Of a stretch of DNA of 46,670 bases, positions 25,124 through 40,806 are shown piece by piece (the stretch's first letter is position 1; each line of letters begins with the position of its first letter). Under the pieces are notes generated by a model that saw only the letters and a list, made by a program, of their open reading frames with translations, was not told the DNA's origin and did not search any database. Source of the stretch: a virus; IMG/VR virus record IMGVR_UViG_3300025508_000032, positions 1 to 46,670 of that record. One strand, given 5' to 3'. Position numbers and translations under genes: made by a program.

Positions 25124-28100
25124 ATGTCAAAGATTTCCGAATTAGGTCCAATCAAAGGTGCCAATACTCGCTCTGAAGACCTTTTTGTTATCGTTAACCT
25201 TATCCAAGGTGATGACGGTACTAAAAACATTACTAGAAAAGAACTTGTAGCCGCGCTGCAATACGAAATCTTTGATAGAATAACCATCACAGGCGGCAAC
25301 ATATCTGGCGTTAGAATCTTCAGTTCAACTATTGAAGATAGCACCATGAATCGTAACTTGTTTAATAACGGCACAATTGATCAATCTGATATTACAGATA
25401 CTACAATCACTGATGGCACAATGATTGGCACAGCTGTATCAAACGTTGCTATTACAACTTCAGATTTTTCTAATGGTACTGGTAATAACAACGTATTTAC
25501 AAGTACGATTGTAACCGAGAGTGAGTTAAACAACTCAACCGGTAATAACAATATCTTTACCAATTCTACTATTGATGATTCTCTTTATAACAATGTTACC
25601 ATCGAAGGTGGTACAGCTAATAACTTAATTCTTACAAACATTACAATTGATGAGCTTATTCTCGAAGATGCATTCATCTCGAATAGCCAAATCGATTCAA
25701 CTACGTTTGCTAATGGCAGCATCGCAGATTCTGATGTTTCAAATGTAGTAATCACAGATACAGATATTTCTAATTCTGACATTAGAGATACAGATCTAGA
25801 CAACGTAGATATTACAAATTCAAGATTCTCAAATGGTGAAATTTGGAATACTGTTCTTTCTAATAATACTATCTTAACAACTGATATTGTTGATTCTACA
25901 TTCTCTAATGGTGATATCTTTGATACTACCGCAAATAATATCACTATTACAAACTCTGATTTCTCAGATGGCACTGGTAATAATAACGTGTTTACTAATC
26001 CAAGATTAGAAAACGCAATCTTGACCGGTGAAATGAATAACGTTGTTGCAGAAAATATTACTATTACAAGTTCTTCTTCTGACGGTTTAACTCAACAGAG
26101 ATCATCTATTGAGCAGTCAGATATTACAGAATCAAATATCGCCAATTCAACTATCAATCAGTCAGAGCTTGTTGACTTTGATATGAATCTTACACGAACA
26201 TTCGAGCCAATGCTTGATGAAGATAGTTATTTTGCTCTAAAGAACGTCAAGACTGGCGACACAGAGAAAATGACTTACCGTCAATTATACGATGAGTTCT
26301 CTAAGAAGACAGAAAAATCCCTTAAAGTACACGTTGCATCAGATGGTGATGACAAATATCCAGGCAGTATCTTACAGCCAGTACGTACTCTAAAGCGCGC
26401 TGAAGAACTTGCGCTACAAAAAGCCGGTGGCTCTTACGACCGCAATGATATTAACAATGCAGTACACATCTCGGTAGGTCCCGGTACTTACTACGTTGAT
26501 GAACCAATCATGTTACCCGATGATTGTGCAATAACTTCAACTGCTGGTCAGTATGCTACACTTATTCAGAAGAAAAAAGGTTGGGAAAAGACTAACGGTA
26601 TTCTAGTTGGTTCTGGTAACTACGTCCAAGGTTTTGGTTATATGAACTTTGAGGTTGATAACTTTGACCAACCTGAAGGTGGTTTTGCTATTGCATATCG
26701 TCCAGGCGCTTTGCTAAGACGTTCACCTTATATTCGAGATAGTTCCCAGCTTTCTAACTTCAACCGTTTAGATGTTGAGCCACCTTTGAATCCATTCAAC
26801 TCTAAAGGTACAATCCTTGACTTAGGACAAGAATTCTATCTTGTTGCTGGCCATAGTGCTCAAGCACAATTTGAACTTGATGATGAAGTTACATTCTCAA
26901 GTGGTGCCACGGGTTATGTTTCGTATATTTTAGATATTGATTCAAATCGCCAGATTTATGTACGTAATCTTAAAGGTAACGTAGAAGTTGGAGATATTCT
27001 TTACGCTCAAAGAGGTGGTACTGGTACAATTGAAAGTATTGGTATTGACGACTTCCCAAATAGATTAGTTGGTCGCGGCGGTGGTTGTCTTCTAGCTGAC
27101 AGAGCTGTACTAGATACTGACTCACTATATACATACGTATTGTGTTTTGGTTTCACACCTCGTACTCAAAACGGTACAGGTTATGTTGCTAAGAACGGTG
27201 CTGGTGTTAACGGTATTGGTTCGCTTTCAATCTTTACTCGCCAAGCATTCTTTGCTCTTGACGGTGGTCAAATGACTTTGAACAACTCCGGTTCTCAGTT
27301 TGGTGACATCTCAATGCGAGCACGCGGCAGCACAGTTATTATTAGACCAGCAAATGGTAATCAAGTTGAATTAATTGCTAATACTGACTTTGCAGATTCG
27401 ATTGATACAAACAAAGAAGATATCATTGATGATATGGTTAATTACCTAACATCTAATACTACGAGTGGCGGGTTAGGTTATCAAGGTTACAATGCCGATA
27501 AATGTTTCCGCGATACTGGTATTATTGTTGATAACACTGGATTAGATATTGCAACTAATTCTAACTACTGGGGTCGCTTAAGCGGTATTACTTATCGTAG
27601 CCCAATTTCTTATGTAGTTGTTAATCAGCAGTTAACAGAAACTGTTGGTTCTATTGAGCATCTTAAAGATGATGTTAGTGCAATCTTTGAAAATGCAAAT
27701 ACCGAAGTTACAATTCGTGCAGAACGCTCGCTAGACGAGACGCTAAATGTTCTTCAAAATGGTGAAGAGTTTGCGTCACCGATTATCTTCTCAAATACTG
27801 GTGACGGCTCCGCAGTTGCAGCTCGTGAATTAGTACAAGATAACCGCGAATTCATTATTGAAGAATTCATCAATTGGTTAGATAATAACGAAGACTTCTA
27901 TGCTTATGATTCAGCTAAATGTAAGCGTGATGTAAGCGAATTCATCTTGCCAGCAGTTAAATACGATACATTACTCGATACTAACTACAACTCAGTAACT
28001 TCTGGTTATGCTTATTACTTTAAAGCAGCTAAGAATGTTATAGGTGCACAGCGTGAAGAAACAATTGCTGCATACGAAAGATTACGTAAAACAACAGATG

Positions 28101-31100
28101 ATCTTACTCAAGATACTTCTCCAGTGTTTGCTGCTGAAGCTTATGAGAAGTTCAACGAAATCCTTGATATTCTTAAGAACGACGGGGCTAAATTAACGCC
28201 CACTGCAGTTACTTACAATGCGGCATCTGGCGAATTTGTAATGACAGTTGGTGCTCATACATTAGATGTTGGAAGATATGTTTTGCTAGGCAGCGAAGCA
28301 TTCAAATTCACGTGTAGCACAGACAATAACTTAACAGAAATTGTTCATCCAAGAAAATCAGATCCGGCATTTAAATCAGCTCTGCCAATTACATCTACGA
28401 CGTCAACAACTATTACAGTTAATGTTGGGACAACCGGTTATACAGGAGTTCATACTCTTGTTAGTGTTGCAGATGACGCGGTATCGGTTCTTGGTTCAGC
28501 TATTGAATTTAGTGATGATGCGGCAATTCCTGCAGATAAGAGAAACGCGCGCAAGCAGCTTCAATCTAATCGCGAATTCATTCAAGATTATATGATGAAC
28601 TGGGCAGACGCTGAATGGTTCTTCTATAATAGTGCTAAATGTCAACGTGATATGAAAGATTACATTGTACCTTCTGTGTTGAGAGATACACTAACAGGCA
28701 CAAACTTTAACTCTATCCAATCTGGTATTGCTTATCGTCAAGCTATTGCAAAAGTTGCAGTTGATGATCAGCTCGTAGAAACAGTTGGTGCAGTTGAACA
28801 CCTTAAGCGTGAAACAGTTGATACAGTTTCTGATCCTATTGTGGCAGACAGAATTGCTAAAGGATACGATGAAATTATTAGTATCATGCAAACAAAAGGT
28901 AGACAATATACTCCTACTGATGCTGCTTACAATCCTTCAACCGGTGTTATGACATTAACGCTTAATAACCACTCGTTTGAAACCGGTGATCAACTTGTGT
29001 TTGACGAAAACGCAGTTACTTTCTCTTGTGCAAACACTGCTACAAGCGTAGTTACTGAGATTTCTCACCCACGTTCTACTGATCCATTATTCAGAACTGC
29101 GGTTACAATTACAGGAACAACTGATAGCACTATCACAATGAATGTTGGTAATGCTGGTGGTTATACTGAAACACATACATTTGTAAGAGCTAAGCTAAAC
29201 GGTGTTAAGCAAACTGGTTACACTAACGGCGCGTTTACTCCAACTACCGCAGCTTATGACCCAGTTACTGGCCTTATGTCAGTAACAATTGGCGCGCATG
29301 ATTTCCAACTTGGCGACACAATTAAAATTGCTGAAGAAAGCATTACATTTAGTTGCTTAGACGGTTTATCAAACCCAGTAGAAATCTCTCATCCACGTTC
29401 AACTGATGCTGCGTTTAATACTAGCTTACCAATTATTAGTAAGACAGATACAACCATTACAGTTCAAGTTGGCAATGCTGGTTCCTACACTGCTGCACAT
29501 ACATTTGTATATGCTGCGCCAGATGCGATAAGAAAAGTAGAAATTTACAACGGTAAGTTCACCCCAACCGATGTTGCTTACAACCCAATTAGTGGTGATA
29601 TGACAGCAACAATTGGCCAGCATAATCTTAGTGTTGGAAAATGGATTGAAATCGCAGATGAGTCTATTACACTATCATGTGCTAATACTGCTGCTAACAC
29701 TACGGTTGAAATCTCGCATCCACGTTCTACAGACCCTGCCCATAAAGCACCGGTTAGAATTACAGATGTAACTGGTTCAACTATTACATTCAATGTTGGT
29801 AACGCAAACGGTTATACTGGCGAACATACCTTTGTAAGCGCAACAGTTGATTCTATTGATACTAACGCAATTTACTGGACTGATCCAGCTAAAATCGATT
29901 CATTCCATACGCCATTAAATGTAACATATGACCCCGCAACTGGTACATCAATAATTGAACTTGGTGCAGGACATGGTATTACAGTTGATGATCATATCGA
30001 GTTTAAACCACAAAGTATCGTGTTTAGTTGTGCAAATACCGTAACATTAGCAGTTACTGAAATTTCTCACCCAAGAATTGGTGAGCCTAATTACCAAATG
30101 CCATTAGAAGTTGATAGCGCTAATAATACGCACATTACCGTAACTTCTAGTGCTGCAAACGGTTATACTGGTGTTCATACTTTCGTAAGTGCTGAAGCAG
30201 GTTCTTTAGTTAAGACTCCAGTAAACGTAACACGCCAAGGTAAACTTGCTTCTAAACAGTTACAAGTTAACAAACCATTCTTGCAGGACGAAGTCGATGC
30301 TTGGATTCGAGATAACTACTTTGTGTATAATGATGTATTATGTGCAAGAGATACTGGTCTAATCTTAGACGCAGTACGTAGAGATATTGCTACTGGCTCA
30401 AATGTTAACTCAGTATTTACAGGTCTTGCTTATCGCTCAGGTAATGCATCAACTGAATCAGTCATTGCTAATGAATTAACAGAAACAGTCGGCGCAATTA
30501 CTTGGTTGAAAGGCCAAATTGCTGATAATATTGTTGCTGGTGAAGGCGAAACAAGATCAAATGCCGCTTTCGATGAAATTATCGAAATCATGCAAAATGG
30601 TACTTCAAATGCTGATATCCGTGACACTGGCACAGCCTATGCTACGGAAGAAGGATACGACGCGCAGTTATTGTTACAATCTAACAAAGACTTCTTCATT
30701 GCTGAAACTACTGCATGGATTGCTAACACATACCCAACTGTGACATACGATTCAGCTAAATGTGAAAGAGATGTTAGTTGGTTCATTGATTCAGTATCTT
30801 GGGATGTCCAACACGACTCAAACGCAGCAACAGTTAATAATTCAAGATTGTATTTTGATAAAGCTGTTACTGTTCTTCCTGATAGCCAACGTCCTGCTAC
30901 TGCTGCTTCATTCGAGCATATGGCTGAGATTGCTGGTCAAATAGTAAGAAACGAGTTAGTTGTTAATGTACAGCAAGGTGTTGAAACACAAGTTAGAGCA
31001 GTTGATGCTAATACTTCATTCACACCAACTGATGCATCTTATGACCCAGTAACTGGTCTTATCTCAGTAACGATTGGTGCTCACACACTTGAAAGTGGTG

Positions 31101-34100
31101 ATTATATCATCATGGACGAAAATGCTATTACTTTCTCTTGTGCTAATACAGCAACACAAGTTGTAACTAATATCTCGCATCCAAGAACAACTGATCCATA
31201 CTTTAACCGTCCAGTAGAAATCCTTGAAGTAACAGGAACTACTATTAAAATGCAGGTTGGAGTTGTTCCAAACGGATACGCAGGTGTTCATACTTTTGTA
31301 AGTGCAGTAGCTGATTCCTTTATGAAATCTTCTTCTCCATATGTTGCTACACAAGTAGAAAATCTGTTTAATATCATAACAAATATGGTTCGCGGTAATA
31401 GTTTTGCTGAACTACCTGCGATTAAAGAGCCATCATTAATTGGTGTTGGATACGATTCAACAATCAATGGCTACTTTGAAACAATTAACGGAAATACTGT
31501 TAAGTATCAAACAGAAATCATTGACTTTATTCGTGAAGAATACAATGGCCTTGGTTACAATACTGAACTTTGCTACAGAGACGTAGGTTTGATTGTTGAC
31601 GCTATCAGCGAAGATGTAGAATATGGTGGCGATGGTGCTACAGTAAATGCTGCTACTTACTACTTTAATAACGCAGTAAATATTCTTCCATACGAGCAAA
31701 GAGTACCTACAAGACTAGCTTTCGAGCACCTTGCAGATGTTTCAGAAGACGTTATAACTAATAATATAGTAACACCAACCTCAGGTAATCTAACCTCTCA
31801 GGTCACTACAGGGACTCCAGCCGACGCTGCTACAGCAGAAAACGCTAAGAATCTTATTAACATAATATCAGATGTAGTTGATACTAGATTAGTTATTCCT
31901 GGGCTTGCTGGATCTCTTGATATTAGTGTTGGTCAACAAACTCCGGAATCATTACCGGCAGTTACTGCTGCTACAATACCAGCCATAGAACCAAGCAGAA
32001 CCTTTGCGCGACAATCTTTACAGTTTAACAAAGAGTTTATCCAAGATGAAGTTGTTTCTTACATCAACGATCAATACTTTGTTTATAATGAAGATAAATG
32101 TGCAAGAGATGTTGGTTATATTCTAGACGCAGTTAAACGTGATGTACAAACTGGAAGTGATTACCCAAGCAAATACGCTGGTAGAGCTTATAGATCTGGC
32201 AATGTTGGAACTGAAATTGTAGTTAATGAGCAATTAGCAGAAACAATTGAAGCTATTAAGTATCTTAGAGAAGATATCTTACCAAGACTATCTGGTGTTG
32301 CTTTAACACGAGCTACTGCGTCATTTACAAATGTCATTAATATTATGAAAGACGGAACAGCCGGTCTTACTTACAGCACTTATGGTACTGCTAATATCGG
32401 TTCAAGTTACGGCAGTGCTACTGACGGCCTGCAGCTTAACAAAGCATTCTTAGCGGCTGAAGTAGTTGCATGGATTAATGTTCAAATTGCTGCTAATGTT
32501 CCTGGCTTTGTCGGTCTAACGTATAGTGAAGCTAAATGTGAAAGAGACGTTGGCTACATGGTAGATGCTGCATCTTACGATATTAGACATGGTTCTAATG
32601 TTGCAATGAGAGATGTTGCAAGATTCTACTTTGAAGCTGGCCAATCAATTCTTCCTGCTAATCAAAGAGTAGCAACAGCTGCAGCGTTTACTAGAATCGC
32701 AGCAGTAGCGGAGCAGGTTGTCCTTAAACAGGCAGTAGCGAAATCAGCAGGTAACTTGCTTGATCCAGTAACAACTGGCTTCGGTAACGTTGTTGGAGCA
32801 ACCGGTGTTCAAGTAGAAGTTCTATTCAACATCGTATCAGATCTAATTACTGCTGGCGAAGTTATCGCAATGCCAACGGCAATCGAAACAGATAGCAGTA
32901 ATCCAGCTGCAACTGGTTACGATTATGAAAGCGAAGTTGGAACGATTGAAGATCGTAAATCAACTCTTGCAATCGGTGTTAATAAGTTCTTACAGTCAGA
33001 ATTTGATTATCTTGAGTACAATTCAATTAAATGTAAACGCGATGTTGGTTACATGGTTGATGCGCTATCACATGATATTCAGTATGGCGGTAACTCTGCA
33101 ATGTGGACAGCGGCTCAAATTTACTTCGTTAACGCAGTGAACTTGCTACCAATAGAACAAAGAGAACCTACTAAGCGTGCATTTACACATATGGCTGGAA
33201 TCATGCATAGTGTTATCAGACATGAAACAGTAACTGCAACAGCTGGTAATGTTCAAACTCAGTACATGAAAGGTTTAACCGCAAATAGAGAAATTGCTCA
33301 AGAAGCGAAAGATCTTGCACTTATGGTTGCTAACATTGCTGATGATACTAATCCTACTAACTTGCCAGCACGTATTGAGCCAAATACATCTTGGATCAAC
33401 AATATCCTTATTACAGAGAAAGACAAGGTAGATAATGCGCTAGAAACTCTAGTTACAAGCATGATTAACTTTATCTCATCTGAATACAAAGGTATTAGTT
33501 ATCCTAAAGAGAAATGTCGTAGAGACGTTGGTATCATTGTTGATGCTTTATCACACGATATTCAATATCAGACAAACTATGCTACAAGACTTTGTGCAAA
33601 TATGTACTTTGATAACGCAACAAGTGTTCTACCATTCGATCAAAGAATGCAAACTGCAGACTTTTACGAAGAAATGGGTAATGTACTAAATAGTATTGTA
33701 GTTGAAGGCTTAGTTGGTCAAGACGTAACTGGAACGCCAGCAACACTTGTTGAAGGTAACGCAGTACAAGATCTTGTAAGAATTCTTGAAGAAGCAATTC
33801 GTAGAAACGGTCTAGATGCTGTACCAGAACTTATTGAACCAGATACATCTTGGGTTGTTTCTGAGAAGGTAGCAGCTGGCGAAGTTATCGATTCTAACTT
33901 AGATGAATTGGCGGATGACGTAACTGATTATATTGCTGATAACTTTACAATCATTGATTACAGCAAAGCGAAATGTCGCCGTGATTCAGGCTATATTCTA
34001 GATGCAATGAGCTATGACTTAAATTATGGCGGTAATATTGCTTCTAGATGGAATGCAGACTTCTACTTCTGGAATAACCAATTGCGCATCCCAGAGAATA

Positions 34101-35239
34101 CAAGAGTTGCAACTGCACAATCTTATCGTCAGCTTGGAAGAATAGTTAAAGACGTAGTACTCGGTCAATATCCTGGACAGATTCTTCGCCCTGAAACTGG
34201 TAGTGAAGTTCAATCTGTACAAGCTAACGATCTTGGTATGATCTTCTACAACGCACTGTTCTACAACACTCCTAACAAGCTTGGACCAACTATTAATCCA
34301 GATTTTGCTTGGGAAGATAATAAAGCATTCGGTTTCGCTAAAACGATTCTTGATAACAATAAACGCAGATTACAAAGTGAAGTACAAAGGTTTATTACTT
34401 CTGAATATAAGTTTATTGATCTACCTAAGACTTATCGCGATGCTAATAACTTCCTTAAAGTTATCCAGAATGATTTCAAGTTTGAAGATCCACTCTTGGG
34501 TCCAATTGGTTCAGATAGAGCTTCAAGATCTTTCGTTGGTGCATTATTTAATATCGATGCTAAACATGTATTCCCAGTGTTTAATCCGCCAGCAACATTT
34601 AGCAATTGGCGCAAACTGAGATTCAAAGGTACTGTTGCAAATACTACAGAACGTGATGCATTAACTGGTATGAAACGTTGGGACGCGTATATTATCCCAA
34701 CTGATAATAACACAAATCGTTATGCTGGTGATATCATTCATTGGACAGGAACAACGTGGACTGCTACTGGCGCGGTTGGAGCTAACAATACTGATCTGCT
34801 AGACGCTTTCACAGGTGCTTGGACACAGATGAAAACTTATATAAATAACAATATCGCTACAGATCAACCACAAAGAGATATGGTAACCGAATTGATTGAT
34901 AACGTAATTATAGATAGTGTTCTTAGACCAGACTTCCTAGTCTTCGGTTCACTAGTTGAATCAATTGCTCACCAGTTTAATGGAGCATCGGCAGGTGTTA
35001 ATAGAAACGCTTTGCCACTTAACTTCAGAAACGTTGGTGCTGCTATCGGTGCAAACGCTTCAGTATTGTCAGAAAACGGCGGTCGTATCAGGTGGTCTGG
35101 ATCAGACGAATTAAACAACCAGTACTTTGCGCGAGGTCTAAAAATTAATGGTAGAACAGGTCGTATCGAAGGTCGGCCGTTCACATCATCGGTAAGAAAA
35201 CTTGCAAGAAGAGCATCTAACTCAAGGGCATCTCTATAA
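25124..35239 (+). CDS. Giant repeat-containing virion fibre protein (3371 aa)
   Basis: This 3371-aa protein is one of the longest in the window. Residues about 65-350 are runs of short, repeated strands (ISNSDIRDTDLDNVDITNSRF and similar) expected to wind into a beta-helix. Residues about 400-770 look like a pectin-lyase-type right-handed helix (VHVASDGDDKYPG, PVRTLKRAEELAL, SVGPGTYYVDEPI). From about residue 785 to 3000 there are 11 copies of a KCxRD domain (cysteines at 794, 933, 1173, 1740, 1880, 2150, 2326, 2472, 2637, 2798, 2951), mixed with six copies of a second domain marked SHPRxTDP and HTFV. The C-terminus (about residues 3160-3220) has SNWRKLRFKGTVANTTER. No enzyme motif is evident. 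It is probably a long side fibre or baseplate fibre of a marine T4-like phage; folding and assembly need are unknown. Confidence 0.8.
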   Translation: MSKISELGPIKGANTRSEDLFVIVNLIQGDDGTKNITRKELVAALQYEIFDRITITGGNISGVRIFSSTIEDSTMNRNLFNNGTIDQSDITDTTITDGTMIGTAVSNVAITTSDFSNGTGNNNVFTSTIVTESELNNSTGNNNIFTNSTIDDSLYNNVTIEGGTANNLILTNITIDELILEDAFISNSQIDSTTFANGSIADSDVSNVVITDTDISNSDIRDTDLDNVDITNSRFSNGEIWNTVLSNNTILTTDIVDSTFSNGDIFDTTANNITITNSDFSDGTGNNNVFTNPRLENAILTGEMNNVVAENITITSSSSDGLTQQRSSIEQSDITESNIANSTINQSELVDFDMNLTRTFEPMLDEDSYFALKNVKTGDTEKMTYRQLYDEFSKKTEKSLKVHVASDGDDKYPGSILQPVRTLKRAEELALQKAGGSYDRNDINNAVHISVGPGTYYVDEPIMLPDDCAITSTAGQYATLIQKKKGWEKTNGILVGSGNYVQGFGYMNFEVDNFDQPEGGFAIAYRPGALLRRSPYIRDSSQLSNFNRLDVEPPLNPFNSKGTILDLGQEFYLVAGHSAQAQFELDDEVTFSSGATGYVSYILDIDSNRQIYVRNLKGNVEVGDILYAQRGGTGTIESIGIDDFPNRLVGRGGGCLLADRAVLDTDSLYTYVLCFGFTPRTQNGTGYVAKNGAGVNGIGSLSIFTRQAFFALDGGQMTLNNSGSQFGDISMRARGSTVIIRPANGNQVELIANTDFADSIDTNKEDIIDDMVNYLTSNTTSGGLGYQGYNADKCFRDTGIIVDNTGLDIATNSNYWGRLSGITYRSPISYVVVNQQLTETVGSIEHLKDDVSAIFENANTEVTIRAERSLDETLNVLQNGEEFASPIIFSNTGDGSAVAARELVQDNREFIIEEFINWLDNNEDFYAYDSAKCKRDVSEFILPAVKYDTLLDTNYNSVTSGYAYYFKAAKNVIGAQREETIAAYERLRKTTDDLTQDTSPVFAAEAYEKFNEILDILKNDGAKLTPTAVTYNAASGEFVMTVGAHTLDVGRYVLLGSEAFKFTCSTDNNLTEIVHPRKSDPAFKSALPITSTTSTTITVNVGTTGYTGVHTLVSVADDAVSVLGSAIEFSDDAAIPADKRNARKQLQSNREFIQDYMMNWADAEWFFYNSAKCQRDMKDYIVPSVLRDTLTGTNFNSIQSGIAYRQAIAKVAVDDQLVETVGAVEHLKRETVDTVSDPIVADRIAKGYDEIISIMQTKGRQYTPTDAAYNPSTGVMTLTLNNHSFETGDQLVFDENAVTFSCANTATSVVTEISHPRSTDPLFRTAVTITGTTDSTITMNVGNAGGYTETHTFVRAKLNGVKQTGYTNGAFTPTTAAYDPVTGLMSVTIGAHDFQLGDTIKIAEESITFSCLDGLSNPVEISHPRSTDAAFNTSLPIISKTDTTITVQVGNAGSYTAAHTFVYAAPDAIRKVEIYNGKFTPTDVAYNPISGDMTATIGQHNLSVGKWIEIADESITLSCANTAANTTVEISHPRSTDPAHKAPVRITDVTGSTITFNVGNANGYTGEHTFVSATVDSIDTNAIYWTDPAKIDSFHTPLNVTYDPATGTSIIELGAGHGITVDDHIEFKPQSIVFSCANTVTLAVTEISHPRIGEPNYQMPLEVDSANNTHITVTSSAANGYTGVHTFVSAEAGSLVKTPVNVTRQGKLASKQLQVNKPFLQDEVDAWIRDNYFVYNDVLCARDTGLILDAVRRDIATGSNVNSVFTGLAYRSGNASTESVIANELTETVGAITWLKGQIADNIVAGEGETRSNAAFDEIIEIMQNGTSNADIRDTGTAYATEEGYDAQLLLQSNKDFFIAETTAWIANTYPTVTYDSAKCERDVSWFIDSVSWDVQHDSNAATVNNSRLYFDKAVTVLPDSQRPATAASFEHMAEIAGQIVRNELVVNVQQGVETQVRAVDANTSFTPTDASYDPVTGLISVTIGAHTLESGDYIIMDENAITFSCANTATQVVTNISHPRTTDPYFNRPVEILEVTGTTIKMQVGVVPNGYAGVHTFVSAVADSFMKSSSPYVATQVENLFNIITNMVRGNSFAELPAIKEPSLIGVGYDSTINGYFETINGNTVKYQTEIIDFIREEYNGLGYNTELCYRDVGLIVDAISEDVEYGGDGATVNAATYYFNNAVNILPYEQRVPTRLAFEHLADVSEDVITNNIVTPTSGNLTSQVTTGTPADAATAENAKNLINIISDVVDTRLVIPGLAGSLDISVGQQTPESLPAVTAATIPAIEPSRTFARQSLQFNKEFIQDEVVSYINDQYFVYNEDKCARDVGYILDAVKRDVQTGSDYPSKYAGRAYRSGNVGTEIVVNEQLAETIEAIKYLREDILPRLSGVALTRATASFTNVINIMKDGTAGLTYSTYGTANIGSSYGSATDGLQLNKAFLAAEVVAWINVQIAANVPGFVGLTYSEAKCERDVGYMVDAASYDIRHGSNVAMRDVARFYFEAGQSILPANQRVATAAAFTRIAAVAEQVVLKQAVAKSAGNLLDPVTTGFGNVVGATGVQVEVLFNIVSDLITAGEVIAMPTAIETDSSNPAATGYDYESEVGTIEDRKSTLAIGVNKFLQSEFDYLEYNSIKCKRDVGYMVDALSHDIQYGGNSAMWTAAQIYFVNAVNLLPIEQREPTKRAFTHMAGIMHSVIRHETVTATAGNVQTQYMKGLTANREIAQEAKDLALMVANIADDTNPTNLPARIEPNTSWINNILITEKDKVDNALETLVTSMINFISSEYKGISYPKEKCRRDVGIIVDALSHDIQYQTNYATRLCANMYFDNATSVLPFDQRMQTADFYEEMGNVLNSIVVEGLVGQDVTGTPATLVEGNAVQDLVRILEEAIRRNGLDAVPELIEPDTSWVVSEKVAAGEVIDSNLDELADDVTDYIADNFTIIDYSKAKCRRDSGYILDAMSYDLNYGGNIASRWNADFYFWNNQLRIPENTRVATAQSYRQLGRIVKDVVLGQYPGQILRPETGSEVQSVQANDLGMIFYNALFYNTPNKLGPTINPDFAWEDNKAFGFAKTILDNNKRRLQSEVQRFITSEYKFIDLPKTYRDANNFLKVIQNDFKFEDPLLGPIGSDRASRSFVGALFNIDAKHVFPVFNPPATFSNWRKLRFKGTVANTTERDALTGMKRWDAYIIPTDNNTNRYAGDIIHWTGTTWTATGAVGANNTDLLDAFTGAWTQMKTYINNNIATDQPQRDMVTELIDNVIIDSVLRPDFLVFGSLVESIAHQFNGASAGVNRNALPLNFRNVGAAIGANASVLSENGGRIRWSGSDELNNQYFARGLKINGRTGRIEGRPFTSSVRKLARRASNSRASL
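27488..34240 (+). repeat. KCxRD protein repeat array, 11 copies plus one decayed copy
   Basis: Each copy has an aromatic residue, then KC-x-RD (or LC-x-RD), a helix ending in D (VDALSHDIQY, LDAVRRDIAT), then Asn-rich or SN-containing turns and a second helix. Cysteine codons begin at 27503, 27920, 28640, 30341, 30761, 31571, 32099, 32537, 33032, 33515 and 33974. A final copy near 34423 (KTYRDANNFLKV) has lost the cysteine. The last six are spaced about 146-176 residues apart. Confidence 0.85.
28190..31330 (+). repeat. SHPR/HTFV protein repeat, six copies
   Basis: Copies begin at FTPT-type motifs near 28190, 28906, 29232, 29557, 29900 and 31018. Each has a VAYNP-like turn, a strand, SCANT (or TCSTD/SCLDG), an EISHPRxTDP motif (IVHPRKSDP in the first) and a closing HTFV or HTLV. 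Copies 2-5 are in tandem; copies 1 and 6 are separated by KCxRD domains. Confidence 0.83.
34850..34857 (+). promoter_or_regulatory. Possible internal late promoter within the giant gene
   Basis: An exact TATAAATA lies inside the coding sequence of the giant protein, about 382 bases before the next gene's start at 35239. It could drive extra transcription of the 140-aa and collagen-like genes. It may be only chance in an AT-rich coding stretch. Confidence 0.35.
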
Positions 35240-35661
35240 TGGCTATTACAACAATCGTAACATCTCAGGCGCCAGATGCAAAACCGGTCGCAAAGTCTTT
35301 TACATTGACGACCAACTGGCAAACAATGATCGAGGTACCTAACTATGAGGTACCGGAGCTTGTCTTTGGTGGATCAACAACAGTAGAACCGGGAGTAGGC
35401 GAAGTTATTTCGCCTCTCATTCTGTGTAACTTTACAGCAAACACTGTTGCAATTGATGTAAGAACTCATAGAGAAGATGTTAACGCAGAATTTTGGATTA
35501 TTAGAAATCTTCAACTTCCTGCTTATGACACAATTCCTCTGCCGCTTAATGGTCAGTTCTTTAAATCTGGTGATTTGCTAGAAATTAAATGTGATACAAA
35601 CTTAGCAGTAGATGCTTCACTATCCTTTACGCTGGGTCAATCCGAAGAGGATGATGTATAA
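35239..35661 (+). CDS. Small structural protein (140 aa)
   Basis: The 140-aa protein starts on the last base of the giant gene's stop (TAATG) and ends in the next gene's start the same way, so all three are coupled. It is beta-rich and acidic at the end (GQSEEDDV). Visible strands include SFTLTTNWQTMIEVPNY, ISPLILCNFTANTVAIDV, FWIIRNLQLPAYDTIPLPLN and GDLLEIKCDTNLAVDASLSF. This layout looks like a small beta-sandwich found between large fibre genes of marine T4-like phages, with no assigned role. It may be a connector or capping protein between the giant protein and the collagen-like fibre. No enzyme motif is seen. Confidence 0.72.
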   Translation: MAITTIVTSQAPDAKPVAKSFTLTTNWQTMIEVPNYEVPELVFGGSTTVEPGVGEVISPLILCNFTANTVAIDVRTHREDVNAEFWIIRNLQLPAYDTIPLPLNGQFFKSGDLLEIKCDTNLAVDASLSFTLGQSEEDDV

Positions 35662-38600
35662 TGGCTTTTAAATCTATAAGCGGAAGTAGAATAATTGGAC
35701 AGGGTACACCGCAAGCTGTCCCTATTCAATTAGATCCAGCTCCGTACAAAGGTGCTATTGCGTATGGTACTGACGGTTTAATATACGTATCTACAGGTAT
35801 AGCATGGAATAGTGTTGGAGCTGGCATTCAAGGCACAACTGGTATTCAAGGTGATGATGGTTTACAAGGTACGCAAGGTACTTATGGCCCAGGCTTTGAT
35901 GTTATTGGTTCAGTTCCCGATGTTGATGCGGGTGGTGATCCACAAGCAACTCTTAATACTGCGTTTGGATCGGCAACAACAGGACAAGCAGTAATTGATG
36001 AAGCTGATGATGAACTTTGGGTTTATGACGGTGTAAATTGGATTAACGTTGGCTCATTTCGCGGTGTACAAGGTTTCACTGGCTTCCAAGGTATTCAAGG
36101 CAACCAAGGTACTATCGGTCAAGAAGGTATTCAAGGTTCTCGTGGTTTCCGAGGATTCCAAGGTACACAAGGTGTACAAGGCACAGTAGGTATTCAAGGT
36201 ACACAAGGTATTCAAGGGATCCAAGGAACTCAAGGCGTACAGGGTGTGCAAGGTGATACTGGTATCCAAGGTGATACTGGTATCCAAGGTATTCAGGGCA
36301 ACCAAGGCGTACAGGGTAATCAAGGCACAACTGGTATCCAAGGTGATACTGGTATCCAAGGTACTACTGGTTCATACGGTGGAATTTCTTTTGAATTCGC
36401 GTTTGATACTAATAACGCTGCAGCTGATCCTGGCACAAAGACTTTAAGATTCGGCGCGCAGCCGTATCCAAGTACAAATAGAATCTATATAAATGATTTC
36501 GCCGGTCCTGGCACAGTAGACATTTCCAATATTTGGAATACTGTTGATGCATCAACTAATCCCATCAAGTGTAGCTTAAAGTTTACCAAAGTTAGTGACA
36601 TTTCCGTATTCGCAGTATTTCATGTAACTGATATAACAGACAATACTGGATGGTTTACACTTGACGTAGATTATGTCGGTCATAATGGTAGTTTTTCTCT
36701 TAATGATGACATTATAGTATCGATATCAGAATCTGGTGCTCAAGGTGTGCAAGGCCCGCAATCAACACAAGGTACAACCGGTATCCAAGGCGACATTGGT
36801 TTCCAAGGTACACAAGGTGTTCAAGGACATCAGTCTACACAAGGCATCCAAGGTGATACTGGTATACAAGGTATCCAAGGGACGCAGGGCATCCAAGGTA
36901 ATCAGGGTGTTCAAGGTGTGCAAGGAACACAAGGTATCCAAGGTGATGTTGGTTTCCAAGGAACACAAGGTGTTCAAGGCTTCCAAGGTACAATTGGTAT
37001 TCAGGGTTTCCAAGGATTTCAAGGCCTGCAAGGTGGAACTGGTAACCAAGGTACACAAGGTTTCCAAGGCACGCAAGGTTTTGTCGGTGTTCAGGGAGCG
37101 GTTGGTCATTACGGTGGTTTAACTCACGAGTTCAACTTTGTAAGCAATATAACAGCATCTACTGCTCCAGGCACGAGCGGCTGGAAACTTAACACTGACA
37201 ATATTGAAACTGCTACAATCTTAACAATTGATGATGTTCCGTTAGATAATTTTACAAACGATATCGATGAAACGTTTGATTGGTTAGCTGCAATTCCTGG
37301 AGCTAATAAAGGTCTTATCGTAATCGAAAGTTTTGATGATGGTAATGGTCCTGCAGGACACCATCAGGTTGTGTACGAATTCTCAAACTTTACTTGGGAT
37401 GGTGCCGGTAAAACATTCGGTTGGTTTGACATAACTTATGTCGGACAATACGGTGTTATAAGCACAAGTTGGGCTACTGATGTAATTGGTGGCGGCCACG
37501 GTCCTAAGACTCTTATTAACTTTGTTCCACGCGGTGCGGCAGGTATTCAAGGTGATACTGGTATTCAAGGCGATACTGGTATTCAAGGTGATACTGGCAT
37601 TCAAGGTGTTCAAGGTTTCTCTGGTATTCAAGGTGTTCAGGGTTTACAAGGTGCACAAGGTATTGCTGGCGCTTATGGTGGTGCTTCTTTTGAGTATGAC
37701 TTTACTCCGGACACTTCGCCAACAGGTCCTGCTTCAGGCTTAATTAAGTTTAATAACGCTGATTTAACTGCAGCTACAATCTTAAGAATTTCTGATACAG
37801 AAACTAATGGTGCAAACTTAGATCCGTATCTAAGAAGTTTAGATGACGGCGGTAGTGCATTATTAGGCTATATTAAAATTGTTTCGATCGCTGATCCAGC
37901 AGAGTTTATATTATACTCTCTTACTGCGTTAGTAGAGAATGCAGCTTATTATAATTTTAGTGTAACATACTTAACTAAATCAGCCAATGCTGACGCAACT
38001 TACTTTACAAATAATACAGATATCATCTTTACGTTTACTCGCGCTGGTGACATAGGCGTTCAAGGTACTCAAGGTGTACAGTCATTGCAAGGTTTACAAG
38101 GTGACTTTGGTCCACAAGGTACAACTGGAGCGGGTACTCAGGGTGCACAAGGAACGTTTGGTATTCAAGGTGATCTTGGTATTCAAGGTTTCCCAGGACC
38201 AATTGGCCCACAAGGTATTCAAGGGACTGATGGTAACCAAGGTACTGGTGGTCTACAAGGTAATACTGGTGGATTTGGTGGTGTAACATTTGATTACACT
38301 TATAGCACTGACATTGCAGCTACAGATCCGGGTGTTGGTACTCTTAAGTTTAATGCTACTGATTTTGCTTCTGCAACTGCTATGTTCATGGATGATAGAG
38401 ATGACGGCTTTGTTGATATCCAACCATTCCTAAGAACAATTGATGATTCAACTAGCCCGATTAAAGGTCACTTTAAAATATCGGAAAAAGCAGATCCTAG
38501 TAAGTTTACAATATTTACTATTTCTTCATTAACAGAAAATGCTGGTTACTTCACAATTGCATGTGGAGTGGTAAGTGGTTCAGTAAGTGTTTTTGCAGAT

Positions 38601-40376
38601 GCTGAAGATATTATCATTACATTCGCAAGAACTGGTGACATTGGCCCATTAGGTCCGCAAGGTGTTCAGGGCTTTACTGGTATTCAGGGTGATACTGGTA
38701 TACAAGGTGGTGGCGGTGGAATCGGTATCCAAGGTACACAAGGTTTGCAAGGCGAGCTTGGTGCTCAAGGTACGGCAGGTTTTGTCGGTGGAAGCGGTAC
38801 ACAAGGTTCACAAGGAACACAAGGAACACAAAGTGTTCAGGGTATTGCTGGCGCTGATGGCGATGAAGGTTTCCAAGGGTCTCAAGGTATTCAAGGTCTG
38901 CTAGGAACTGGTATACAAGGTATTCAAGGCGAATCCGGTCCTCAAGGTATTGCTGGTCTTGGCGCTACTGGTATTCAGGGTTTCCAAGGCTTGCAAGGTA
39001 TTCAGCAAGCAGGACATCAAGGCGTACAAGGTAATGACGGACCAATTGGTTTTGGTTTGCAAGGTACTCAAGGCGTACAAGGTTCGCAAGGTACCGAAGG
39101 CGACACTGGTTCCCAAGGTGTTCAAGGTGTTGGCGGACAAGGTACTATTGGTTTCCAAGGCGTTCAAGGCCTTGAAGGCGAGTTTGGTACACAGGGCCTT
39201 CAAGGCCAAGATGGCACTGGTAACCAAGGTATTCAAGGTTTCCAAGGTGCTGCAGGTATTGGTGATGAAGGTCTTCAAGGTCTCGGTGGTTTCCAAGGTA
39301 TTCAAGGTAACAATGGTGAACTTGGTGACGAAGGTTTCCAAGGATCTCAAGGTGTTCAAGGCTGGGATGGTTTTCAAGGAATTGACGGCGGCCTAGGTAC
39401 TACTGGTCCTCAAGGTTCTCAAGGCATTCAGGGTGACTTTGGTATTCAGGGTATCCCAGGTTTTGGCGCTCAAGGTACACAGGGTACTCAAGGTGTTCAA
39501 GGTCAACTCGGTATTCAAGGCTTCCCAGGACAAGGCACGCAGGGTATTCAAGGTGTTCAGGCAGCTCAAGGTGTTCAAGGTGAACGTGGCTTCCAAGGTA
39601 CTCAAGGTGTGCAGGGTCCTGGTATTCAAGGTGGTATTGAAAACATCCAGAATATTCATGATCAGTCTACTGTATTGCAAGAATCGCCATTAGCTATTGG
39701 ATTTGTGGAGTTTGGTACTCCTCACAGACCTCTTTTAACTACAGGTGGCCCAAATCCTGGCGGTGAATCTAACTTCTTTTATACTTCAAGTGCAGATGAA
39801 TTAACAGTAGAAAACGCCCAGATTGAAGGCAACATGGTAGTTGTTGGTACACTAACCGCGGGATCAATAACTGGTAACAATGCTGAGTTCCACTTTCCAA
39901 ATGATGTAGTATTGTCATTTGGCGGAGCAGAAGGTAGCGGTAATGTTAAGCAATACTTCGACAGTTCGCTCAATGCATTAGTTATGAGAGCGAATACTAG
40001 TATTGCAACATCGGTTAAATTCAAAAATTCAGCTGCTACAGATATATTTAACTTCGACTTAGCTACCGGCGACCTTACTGCTACTGGCGACCTAAATGCT
40101 AACTCAGACGAAAGATTGAAAGAGAATATCGAAACTATTAACAACGCTCTTGAAAAAGTATCTAATATGAGAGGTGTTTACTTCGATATGAAATCAAGAC
40201 CTGGTGTTAGAAAAGTTGGTTTGATTGCACAAGAAGTAGAAAACGTACTCCCAGAAGTTGTTTCTACTGATCCAAACGGTGAAAACATCAAGAGTGTTGC
40301 TTATGCAAACATTGTTGGACTTTTGATTGAAGCGATTAAAGAACTTAAGAGTGACGTTGACCAGCTCAAAGGTTAA
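35661..40376 (+). CDS. Collagen-like tail fibre with four globular inserts and S74 chaperone (1571 aa)
   Basis: The 1571-aa protein alternates Gly-X-Y triplet segments with four related globular domains. Triplets are dominated by Gln in the third place (GIQ, GTQ, GVQ, GNQ), for example 36061-36370, 36736-37105, 37540-37665, 38055-38265 and 38640-39640. The four globular domains begin with a shared YGG(x)xFE motif near 36376, 37111, 37675 and 38275 and contain strands such as KFTKVSD, FTLDVDYVG and DIIVSI. The C-terminal domain is an S74 chaperone starting at S1482-D1483 in NANSDERLKENI, followed by ALEKVSNMRGVYFDM, GLIAQEVENVLPEVV and IVGLLIEAIKELK. It is likely a trimeric, rod-like fibre, made stable without prolyl hydroxylation. 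The unit ends at the terminator 40405-40428. Confidence 0.88.
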   Translation: MAFKSISGSRIIGQGTPQAVPIQLDPAPYKGAIAYGTDGLIYVSTGIAWNSVGAGIQGTTGIQGDDGLQGTQGTYGPGFDVIGSVPDVDAGGDPQATLNTAFGSATTGQAVIDEADDELWVYDGVNWINVGSFRGVQGFTGFQGIQGNQGTIGQEGIQGSRGFRGFQGTQGVQGTVGIQGTQGIQGIQGTQGVQGVQGDTGIQGDTGIQGIQGNQGVQGNQGTTGIQGDTGIQGTTGSYGGISFEFAFDTNNAAADPGTKTLRFGAQPYPSTNRIYINDFAGPGTVDISNIWNTVDASTNPIKCSLKFTKVSDISVFAVFHVTDITDNTGWFTLDVDYVGHNGSFSLNDDIIVSISESGAQGVQGPQSTQGTTGIQGDIGFQGTQGVQGHQSTQGIQGDTGIQGIQGTQGIQGNQGVQGVQGTQGIQGDVGFQGTQGVQGFQGTIGIQGFQGFQGLQGGTGNQGTQGFQGTQGFVGVQGAVGHYGGLTHEFNFVSNITASTAPGTSGWKLNTDNIETATILTIDDVPLDNFTNDIDETFDWLAAIPGANKGLIVIESFDDGNGPAGHHQVVYEFSNFTWDGAGKTFGWFDITYVGQYGVISTSWATDVIGGGHGPKTLINFVPRGAAGIQGDTGIQGDTGIQGDTGIQGVQGFSGIQGVQGLQGAQGIAGAYGGASFEYDFTPDTSPTGPASGLIKFNNADLTAATILRISDTETNGANLDPYLRSLDDGGSALLGYIKIVSIADPAEFILYSLTALVENAAYYNFSVTYLTKSANADATYFTNNTDIIFTFTRAGDIGVQGTQGVQSLQGLQGDFGPQGTTGAGTQGAQGTFGIQGDLGIQGFPGPIGPQGIQGTDGNQGTGGLQGNTGGFGGVTFDYTYSTDIAATDPGVGTLKFNATDFASATAMFMDDRDDGFVDIQPFLRTIDDSTSPIKGHFKISEKADPSKFTIFTISSLTENAGYFTIACGVVSGSVSVFADAEDIIITFARTGDIGPLGPQGVQGFTGIQGDTGIQGGGGGIGIQGTQGLQGELGAQGTAGFVGGSGTQGSQGTQGTQSVQGIAGADGDEGFQGSQGIQGLLGTGIQGIQGESGPQGIAGLGATGIQGFQGLQGIQQAGHQGVQGNDGPIGFGLQGTQGVQGSQGTEGDTGSQGVQGVGGQGTIGFQGVQGLEGEFGTQGLQGQDGTGNQGIQGFQGAAGIGDEGLQGLGGFQGIQGNNGELGDEGFQGSQGVQGWDGFQGIDGGLGTTGPQGSQGIQGDFGIQGIPGFGAQGTQGTQGVQGQLGIQGFPGQGTQGIQGVQAAQGVQGERGFQGTQGVQGPGIQGGIENIQNIHDQSTVLQESPLAIGFVEFGTPHRPLLTTGGPNPGGESNFFYTSSADELTVENAQIEGNMVVVGTLTAGSITGNNAEFHFPNDVVLSFGGAEGSGNVKQYFDSSLNALVMRANTSIATSVKFKNSAATDIFNFDLATGDLTATGDLNANSDERLKENIETINNALEKVSNMRGVYFDMKSRPGVRKVGLIAQEVENVLPEVVSTDPNGENIKSVAYANIVGLLIEAIKELKSDVDQLKG
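35821..39645 (+). repeat. Collagen-like Gly-X-Gln triplet segments
   Basis: At the DNA level the segments are near-repeats of 9-18-base units such as GGTATTCAAGGT and GGTACACAAGGT. Six blocks are separated by the globular inserts; the longest continuous block is 38640-39640. Similar codons recur, so recombination between blocks is likely. Confidence 0.88.
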
Positions 40377-40479: not shown

Positions 40480-40806
40480 ATGAGTTCTCAATTAAACATT
40501 TACATAGATCAAGGTACCGATTTCAGACTTACAGTCGAGTTATTTGACGACGATGACTTAGATCTACCTATTGCAGCTTACACTTTCTTCGGAGATCTGA
40601 AAAAGATATACTCCGCAAAAAGATCTGCAGAGTTTGAATTCGAAAAAACCGATAATGATATTACATTAATATTATCTGCTGATGTAACTAGTCAGCTAAC
40701 GCCCGGAAAATACCAATATGATGTTATGATGAGAAAGCAAACCGGAGAATTGTCAAAAATCGTTGATGGACTTGCGTTTGTTATATCAACCATCACGGAG
40801 GTTTAA
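40480..40806 (+). CDS. Small beta-sandwich structural protein (108 aa), fibre-associated
   Basis: The 108-aa protein has the style of the small phage beta-sandwich found at fibre or upper-baseplate attachment sites: NIYIDQGTDFRLTVELFDDD, a YTFFGDLKKIY strand, a DITLILSADVTSQLTPGKYQYDVMM run and a final LAFVISTITEV strand. In other phages a domain of this type, such as the N-terminal domain of BppU-like proteins, binds to a fibre. It is first in its unit and is followed by a GTG-started fibre gene with GGAGG in between. A role as adaptor for the 1320-aa fibre is inference. Confidence 0.68.
   Translation: MSSQLNIYIDQGTDFRLTVELFDDDDLDLPIAAYTFFGDLKKIYSAKRSAEFEFEKTDNDITLILSADVTSQLTPGKYQYDVMMRKQTGELSKIVDGLAFVISTITEV
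40797..40801 (+). promoter_or_regulatory. Ribosome binding site supporting a GTG start
   Basis: GGAGG sits eight bases before the GTG at 40810. The next ATG codons in this frame would remove conserved-looking N-terminal residues, so the GTG start is the better choice. Confidence 0.75.

Follow-up and report, generated by a model that had tools for sequence, protein, structure and literature searches.

The window analysed here, a 46,670-base IMG/VR fragment, comes from a T4-like myovirus of marine type and covers its baseplate and fibre region, in which a tube cap, a baseplate hub lysozyme and wedge proteins are followed by long fibre genes. One of the latter, a giant gene (Table 1), encodes a 3371-aa protein matching PHROG 701, 5342 and 4527, all of them anonymous families of virion structural or tail fibre proteins. 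Judged from its sequence, this protein likely is a T4-like tail fibre: it matches annotated fibres and its gene sits in the baseplate-fibre cluster. It is collinear with the fibre of a 221-kb relative, with 49-56% identity across most of its length. A Pfam search of the whole protein found nothing over its helical domains. The next fibre gene (35661-40376) matches collagen-like minor tail proteins; after it comes a small gene of the L-shaped tail fibre assembly chaperone type (40480-40806).

A KCxRD domain array in the giant fibre

The first-pass annotation had reported, at 27488-34240, eleven copies of a KCxRD motif with a conserved Cys and a twelfth copy without it. These counts were confirmed: the protein contains 11 C-x-R-D motifs, against a mean of 0.07 and a maximum of 2 in 2000 shuffles of the same protein, and in the twelfth copy (LPKTYRD, aa 3103) a Thr replaces the Cys. 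The array does lie there, but profile matches give it a slightly wider extent, from ~27392 to 34555. The full domain, with its five to six helices, takes up ~115-135 aa. Its description as a modular helical domain of a tail fibre with one fixed Cys per copy was borne out by the copies, the profile and the structural model. The copies are unevenly spaced (139-567 aa), since some of them are separated by beta-type inserts that carry a second Cys motif. This second module, [IVF]xFSCANTA..V.EISHPR, is ~108 aa long and occurs six times with a fixed Cys of its own, between helical domains 2-3, 3-4 and 5-6 (28211-31303); we know of no family name for it.

Table 1. Features of the giant fibre gene, in window coordinates.
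Feature	Position	Strand	Basis
Giant tail fibre gene, 3371 aa	25124..35239	+	ORF
N-terminal pentapeptide-type beta repeat, aa ~54-365	25283..26218	+	PF13599 Pentapeptide_4, four stretches, under curated cut-off; limits approximate
Phycobiliprotein-like domain 1, Cys794 (DKCFRD)	27392..27754	+	Profile 94 bits
Domain 2, Cys933 (AKCKRD)	27821..28174	+	Profile 109 bits
Beta-type insert, FTCS...IVHPR, Cys1064	28211..28453	+	Sequence; limits approximate
Domain 3, Cys1173 (AKCQRD)	28547..28951	+	Profile 106 bits
Four tandem beta-type inserts, FSC...ISHPR, Cys1302, 1411, 1519, 1636	28901..30193	+	Sequence; limits approximate
Domain 4, Cys1740 (VLCARD)	30248..30592	+	Profile 116 bits; AlphaFold model; allophycocyanin Z 15.1
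Domain 5, Cys1880 (AKCERD)	30662..31063	+	Profile 122 bits; same model as domain 4; in-register alignment with phycocyanin alpha
Beta-type insert, Cys2006	31031..31303	+	Sequence; limits approximate
Domain 6, Cys2150 (ELCYRD)	31475..31879	+	Profile 118 bits
Domain 7, Cys2326 (DKCARD)	32006..32347	+	Profile 121 bits
Domain 8, Cys2472 (AKCERD)	32417..32803	+	Profile 115 bits
Domain 9, Cys2637 (IKCKRD)	32939..33280	+	Profile 114 bits
Domain 10, Cys2798 (EKCRRD)	33419..33787	+	Profile 113 bits; part of second model
Domain 11, Cys2951 (AKCRRD)	33875..34243	+	Profile 110 bits; second model: phycoerythrin beta, Z 15.7, 137 residues aligned
Cys-less terminal copy 12 (KTYRD)	34337..34555	+	Profile 34 bits

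A profile built from the KCxRD copies retrieved 78 viral contigs with hundreds of copies. The Cys, whose conservation outside this phage the first-pass annotation had made a test of its reading, is present in 98% of 248 non-redundant copies, together with the Arg (97%), the Asp (99%), a later Asp (99%) and a Tyr (98%), while mean column identity in the 105-member copy set is 21%. The Cys occurs in 757 of the 763 non-terminal copies, and 750 of these 763 show the complete Cys-x-Arg-Asp. Each of the 57 Thr-bearing copies found in relatives is the last copy of its own protein, and consequently the Cys-less twelfth copy does not represent a random loss; this terminal copy retains the Arg-Asp pair. 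The 11+1 arrangement was found again in many relatives and the array is therefore old rather than a recent expansion. Two relatives have 17 copies rather than 12. The domain was seen in viral sequences only, the lone match in a prokaryote genome being a metagenome-assembled genome (MAG) that contains T4-like phage contigs. Apart from the motif Cys, the domain showed no conserved Cys, nor any conserved His (206 / 248 non-redundant copies), and a heme-binding globin was rejected for want of a conserved proximal His in these copies.

Relatedness to phycobiliproteins

A search of the PDB with the 11-copy core profile gave nothing significant and a wider profile was required. With the 105-copy profile, 29 PDB sequences were obtained at E < 10, 27 of which are phycocyanin alpha chains. 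In these alignments the phage KCxRD falls on the K-C-x-R-D of phycocyanin, the Cys on Cys84, the Arg on Arg86 and the Asp on Asp87; the Lys that usually precedes the phage Cys corresponds to Lys83 of phycocyanin alpha, which we count with the bilin site. The loop preceding the Cys is ~9-11 residues shorter in the phage copies than in phycobiliproteins, where it helps cover the bilin as a lid. In phycobiliproteins and in some BBAGs (bilin biosynthesis-associated globins), the bilin is attached at CXRD: the Cys bonds it covalently, and the Arg and Asp keep it in place (PMC10151467). BBAGs are phycobiliprotein paralogues of non-photosynthetic bacteria, encoded close to heme oxygenase and bilin reductase genes (PMC10151467). 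Since the phage Cys, Arg and Asp are in register with this site, the motif of the first-pass annotation is the bilin-site motif.

Family libraries gave concordant results. PF00502 was the sole recurrent Pfam family (19 of 105 copies, best E 1.7e-5) and TIGR01338 (C-phycocyanin alpha) the top NCBIfam family. The PF00502 cut-off of 22.2 bits was exceeded by the fibres of S-PM2 (30-31), Sf-FP1 (24.5) and two MAG phages (24.5 and 22.5), and the window's own 3371-aa protein scored below it. Within complete phage genomes PF00502 matches were confined to giant fibre genes, and T4, KVP40, HTVC008M and P-SSP7 gave no match to this family. When a 63-residue phycocyanin fragment was searched in reverse against 50,697 phage genomes, the fibres of S-CAM1, S-PM2 and relatives ranked first, the best match covering all 63 residues at 36.5% identity (E 0.02). 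Using hhalign, the whole domain aligned with nine phycobiliproteins at a score of 38.7 and a probability of 82%, against scores of at most 17 for 60 column-shuffled controls. Once the five motif columns were masked the hhalign score was 18.5 against a control maximum of 18.3, with the full-length register unchanged. Under the same masking HMMER no longer set phycobiliproteins apart from shuffled ones, and its sequence case consequently rests largely on the motif.

Structure predictions point to the same family. An AlphaFold model of copies 4-5, built with 61 relatives (pLDDT 88, pTM 0.86), is all-helical and its top PDB matches are nearly all phycobiliproteins (Foldseek probability 1.00; TM-score by target 0.5-0.75), with weak Foldseek E-values (0.1), as is usual for remote helical matches. 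Against allophycocyanin it gave Z 15.1 and an rmsd of 2.1 angstrom over 119 aligned residues. A second model, of four copies including 10 and 11, gave Z 15.7 against phycoerythrin beta with 137 residues aligned (rmsd 3.4); its confidence is low (pLDDT 63), and it serves as a second witness. Helical models can reach Z ~13-14 by chance, hence the fold alone is not decisive; yet the match list is that of one family. Both predicted structures assign to the KCxRD domain the phycobiliprotein globin-type helical fold. Matching in predicted fold as well as in site, the domain appears to be a divergent phycobiliprotein and to define a new branch of the superfamily.

This outcome alters the first-pass view of an undescribed repeat. 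Two of the checks it had proposed, a profile and a one-chain structure, were run and both gave a match to a well-described family, the phycobiliproteins. Its statement that no named family was known holds for the window protein, in which domain databases name nothing, but not at the superfamily level, where PF00502 and TIGR01338 match.

Bilin genes in phages with KCxRD fibres

No bilin gene occurs within the window, which is a 46-kb fragment only; bilin genes were looked for in its relatives. In all 23 cyanophage records compared, the bilin lyase gene cpeT precedes a same-strand KCxRD copy by 3.6-7.7 kb; because these records share ancestry, the arrangement counts as conserved synteny rather than as 23 independent events. 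In S-PM2, Syn1, S-H9-1 and Sf-FP1, cpeT is found 0.7-1.8 kb before the start of the KCxRD fibre gene. Sf-FP1 carries both cpeT and pcyA immediately before its giant fibre gene, the pcyA-type gene ending 37 bp ahead. CpeT-type lyases have been assigned to a different site, Cys-153, in host proteins (PMC10452541). Among 14 complete phages, eight have KCxRD domains, each with cpeT or a bilin reductase, and four have neither; P-SSM2 and Mosig possess a bilin reductase and no detectable KCxRD domain. RefSeq places 16 tRNAs inside the KCxRD fibre gene of S-PM2 (NC_006820, 165928-177267). ARAGORN found no tRNA within this gene and nine just upstream, so the RefSeq placement seems wrong.

The 221-kb relative was picked from viral contigs by its bilin reductase alone and is the one near-complete genome so found. 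It is collinear with the window genes (33-68% identity), carries the orthologous 11+1 fibre array, and has hemO adjoining its bilin reductase. A 77-kb contig likewise brings hemO, a reductase and a KCxRD fibre together. No KCxRD domain was found on 19 bilin-reductase contigs of at most 78 kb, which as fragments are uninformative either way. At least six contigs of the MAG Rhodobacteraceae bacterium Water_Bin34 come from T4-like phages: three bear KCxRD fibres, and three bear hemO and a bilin reductase beside gp59, gp32 and uvsX-like genes.

No psbA was found in the 221-kb relative, which leaves a cyanobacterial host without support in the window's subgroup, and the host of this relative may well not be a cyanobacterium. 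In that case phage-made bilin would have no host phycobilisome as a target. Between positions 136001 and 156000 of this genome, the hemO-reductase pair lies amid phage-borne genes for a PstS-like binding protein (PF12849). Other ORFs there have no Pfam match but look by eye like an alphaproteobacterial porin and a transporter of phosphate; together these neighbours hint at a non-cyanobacterial host.

Proposed function and comparison with known systems

We consider it probable that the KCxRD domain is a bilin-binding globin domain, eleven of which stand in a row in a tail fibre or baseplate-attached adhesin, and that phage-made bilins are attached to it, giving a pigmented virion. That the KCxRD copies bind bilin we infer from their sequences, models and gene neighbourhood: each of the eleven keeps the bilin-attachment Cys, the bilin-holding Arg and Asp and, usually, the counterpart of Lys83. 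Points against it are a sequence signal that leans on the motif, the shortened lid loop, the lack of a bilin gene in the window, the bilin genes of P-SSM2 and Mosig, and the different site assigned to CpeT-type lyases. In the infected cell the phage would use its own heme oxygenase and bilin reductase to produce an open-chain tetrapyrrole, which would be attached to the fibre by the CpeT lyase in cyanophages or by self-assembly as in BBAGs. Up to 11 bilins per fibre chain may thus be carried and the virion be pigmented, the twelfth copy serving as a conserved pigment-free end piece. Candidate roles for the bilin are rigidifying or stabilising a very long chain, a light-dependent fibre state, and sunscreen or photoprotection. 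Light harvesting is unlikely, as the domains belong to a virion protein. A bolder version, to which we give little credence, is that bilin arrays made by the phage's own enzymes act in pigmented virions as a light sensor gating fibre extension or adsorption. Light-dependent adsorption has been reported for several marine cyanomyoviruses (PMC2984593); such a sensor would account for it and, if real, would offer a candidate basis for light effects on cyanophage adsorption.

The most serious competitor, less probable in our judgement though still a reasonable contender, is that the domain descends from bilin-binding globins, has lost bilin binding, and uses its Cys, Arg and Asp for folding or packing. 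The shortened lid loop, the bilin genes of P-SSM2 and Mosig, and the Arg-Asp kept by the terminal Thr-bearing copy all agree with such a loss. It sits poorly, however, with three ligand residues conserved at near 100% against a mean column identity of 21%, and with bilin enzymes that accompany the gene in two separate groups, as cpeT/pcyA in cyanophages and as hemO-FDBR in the window's relatives.

That a helical fibre domain merely came to resemble the globin fold, with CxRD common by chance, seems very improbable. The concentration of the sequence signal in the motif would suit such convergence; yet two models, three sequence libraries and the reverse search are at one on the fold, the place of the motif and the full-length register. 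We give the least credence to the roles suggested in the first-pass annotation, namely Cys disulphides between strands after release, or a metal held between three chains. Either would be in keeping with a fibre that is probably trimeric and has a single fixed Cys in each copy, but the domain offers no other conserved Cys or His as a partner, and the Cys occupies the bilin-attachment position on helix E, beside the bilin-holding Arg and Asp. For a single reactive Cys in a protein made in a reducing cell, this position is a better explanation than a disulphide or a metal.

Among known systems, light-harvesting phycobiliproteins such as phycocyanin alpha share with the phage domain the globin-type helical fold (Z 14-16), the K-C-x-R-D in register and an aligned upstream conserved Asn. 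They differ in that the phage copies are tandem repeats within a 3371-aa fibre, show 10-20% identity and have a shorter loop before the Cys. Light-harvesting phycobiliproteins also form alpha/beta heterodimers that assemble in phycobilisomes and transfer energy, whereas no pairing partner is known for the phage copies. BBAGs, some of which have CXRD, bind bilin without a lyase (PMC10151467) but are stand-alone cellular proteins and not virion parts. The giant fibres of T4-like cyanophages (T4-GC 734 and 830; PHROG 701, 5342 and 4527) contain the same KCxRD domain, although with 2-9 copies found per genome and a cpeT neighbour rather than an 11+1 array, and are annotated just as tail fibre or structural proteins. 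A literature search, outside subscription papers and preprints, returned no report of a phycobiliprotein-like domain in phage particles. To our knowledge, the fibre would be the first virion-borne bilin protein.

The hemO-pcyX/pcyA cassettes of phages, together with cyanophage cpeT and pebS, occur in the same phages and would supply the ligand that such a domain needs. Published roles for phage bilin genes concern host phycobilisomes or iron supply, or none is assigned, and the purpose of the phage genes for heme oxygenase, bilin reductases and CpeT, which are classic auxiliary metabolic genes, has been called a mystery, unresolved or enigmatic; no virion target was proposed in these reports (PMC11480375, PMC3037559). 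This puzzle is sharpest for phages whose presumed hosts lack phycobilisomes. If the KCxRD domains do bind bilin, phage bilin genes would gain a direct target, their role would shift from host metabolism to virion maturation, and the presence of pigment-making genes in many such phages would be explained.
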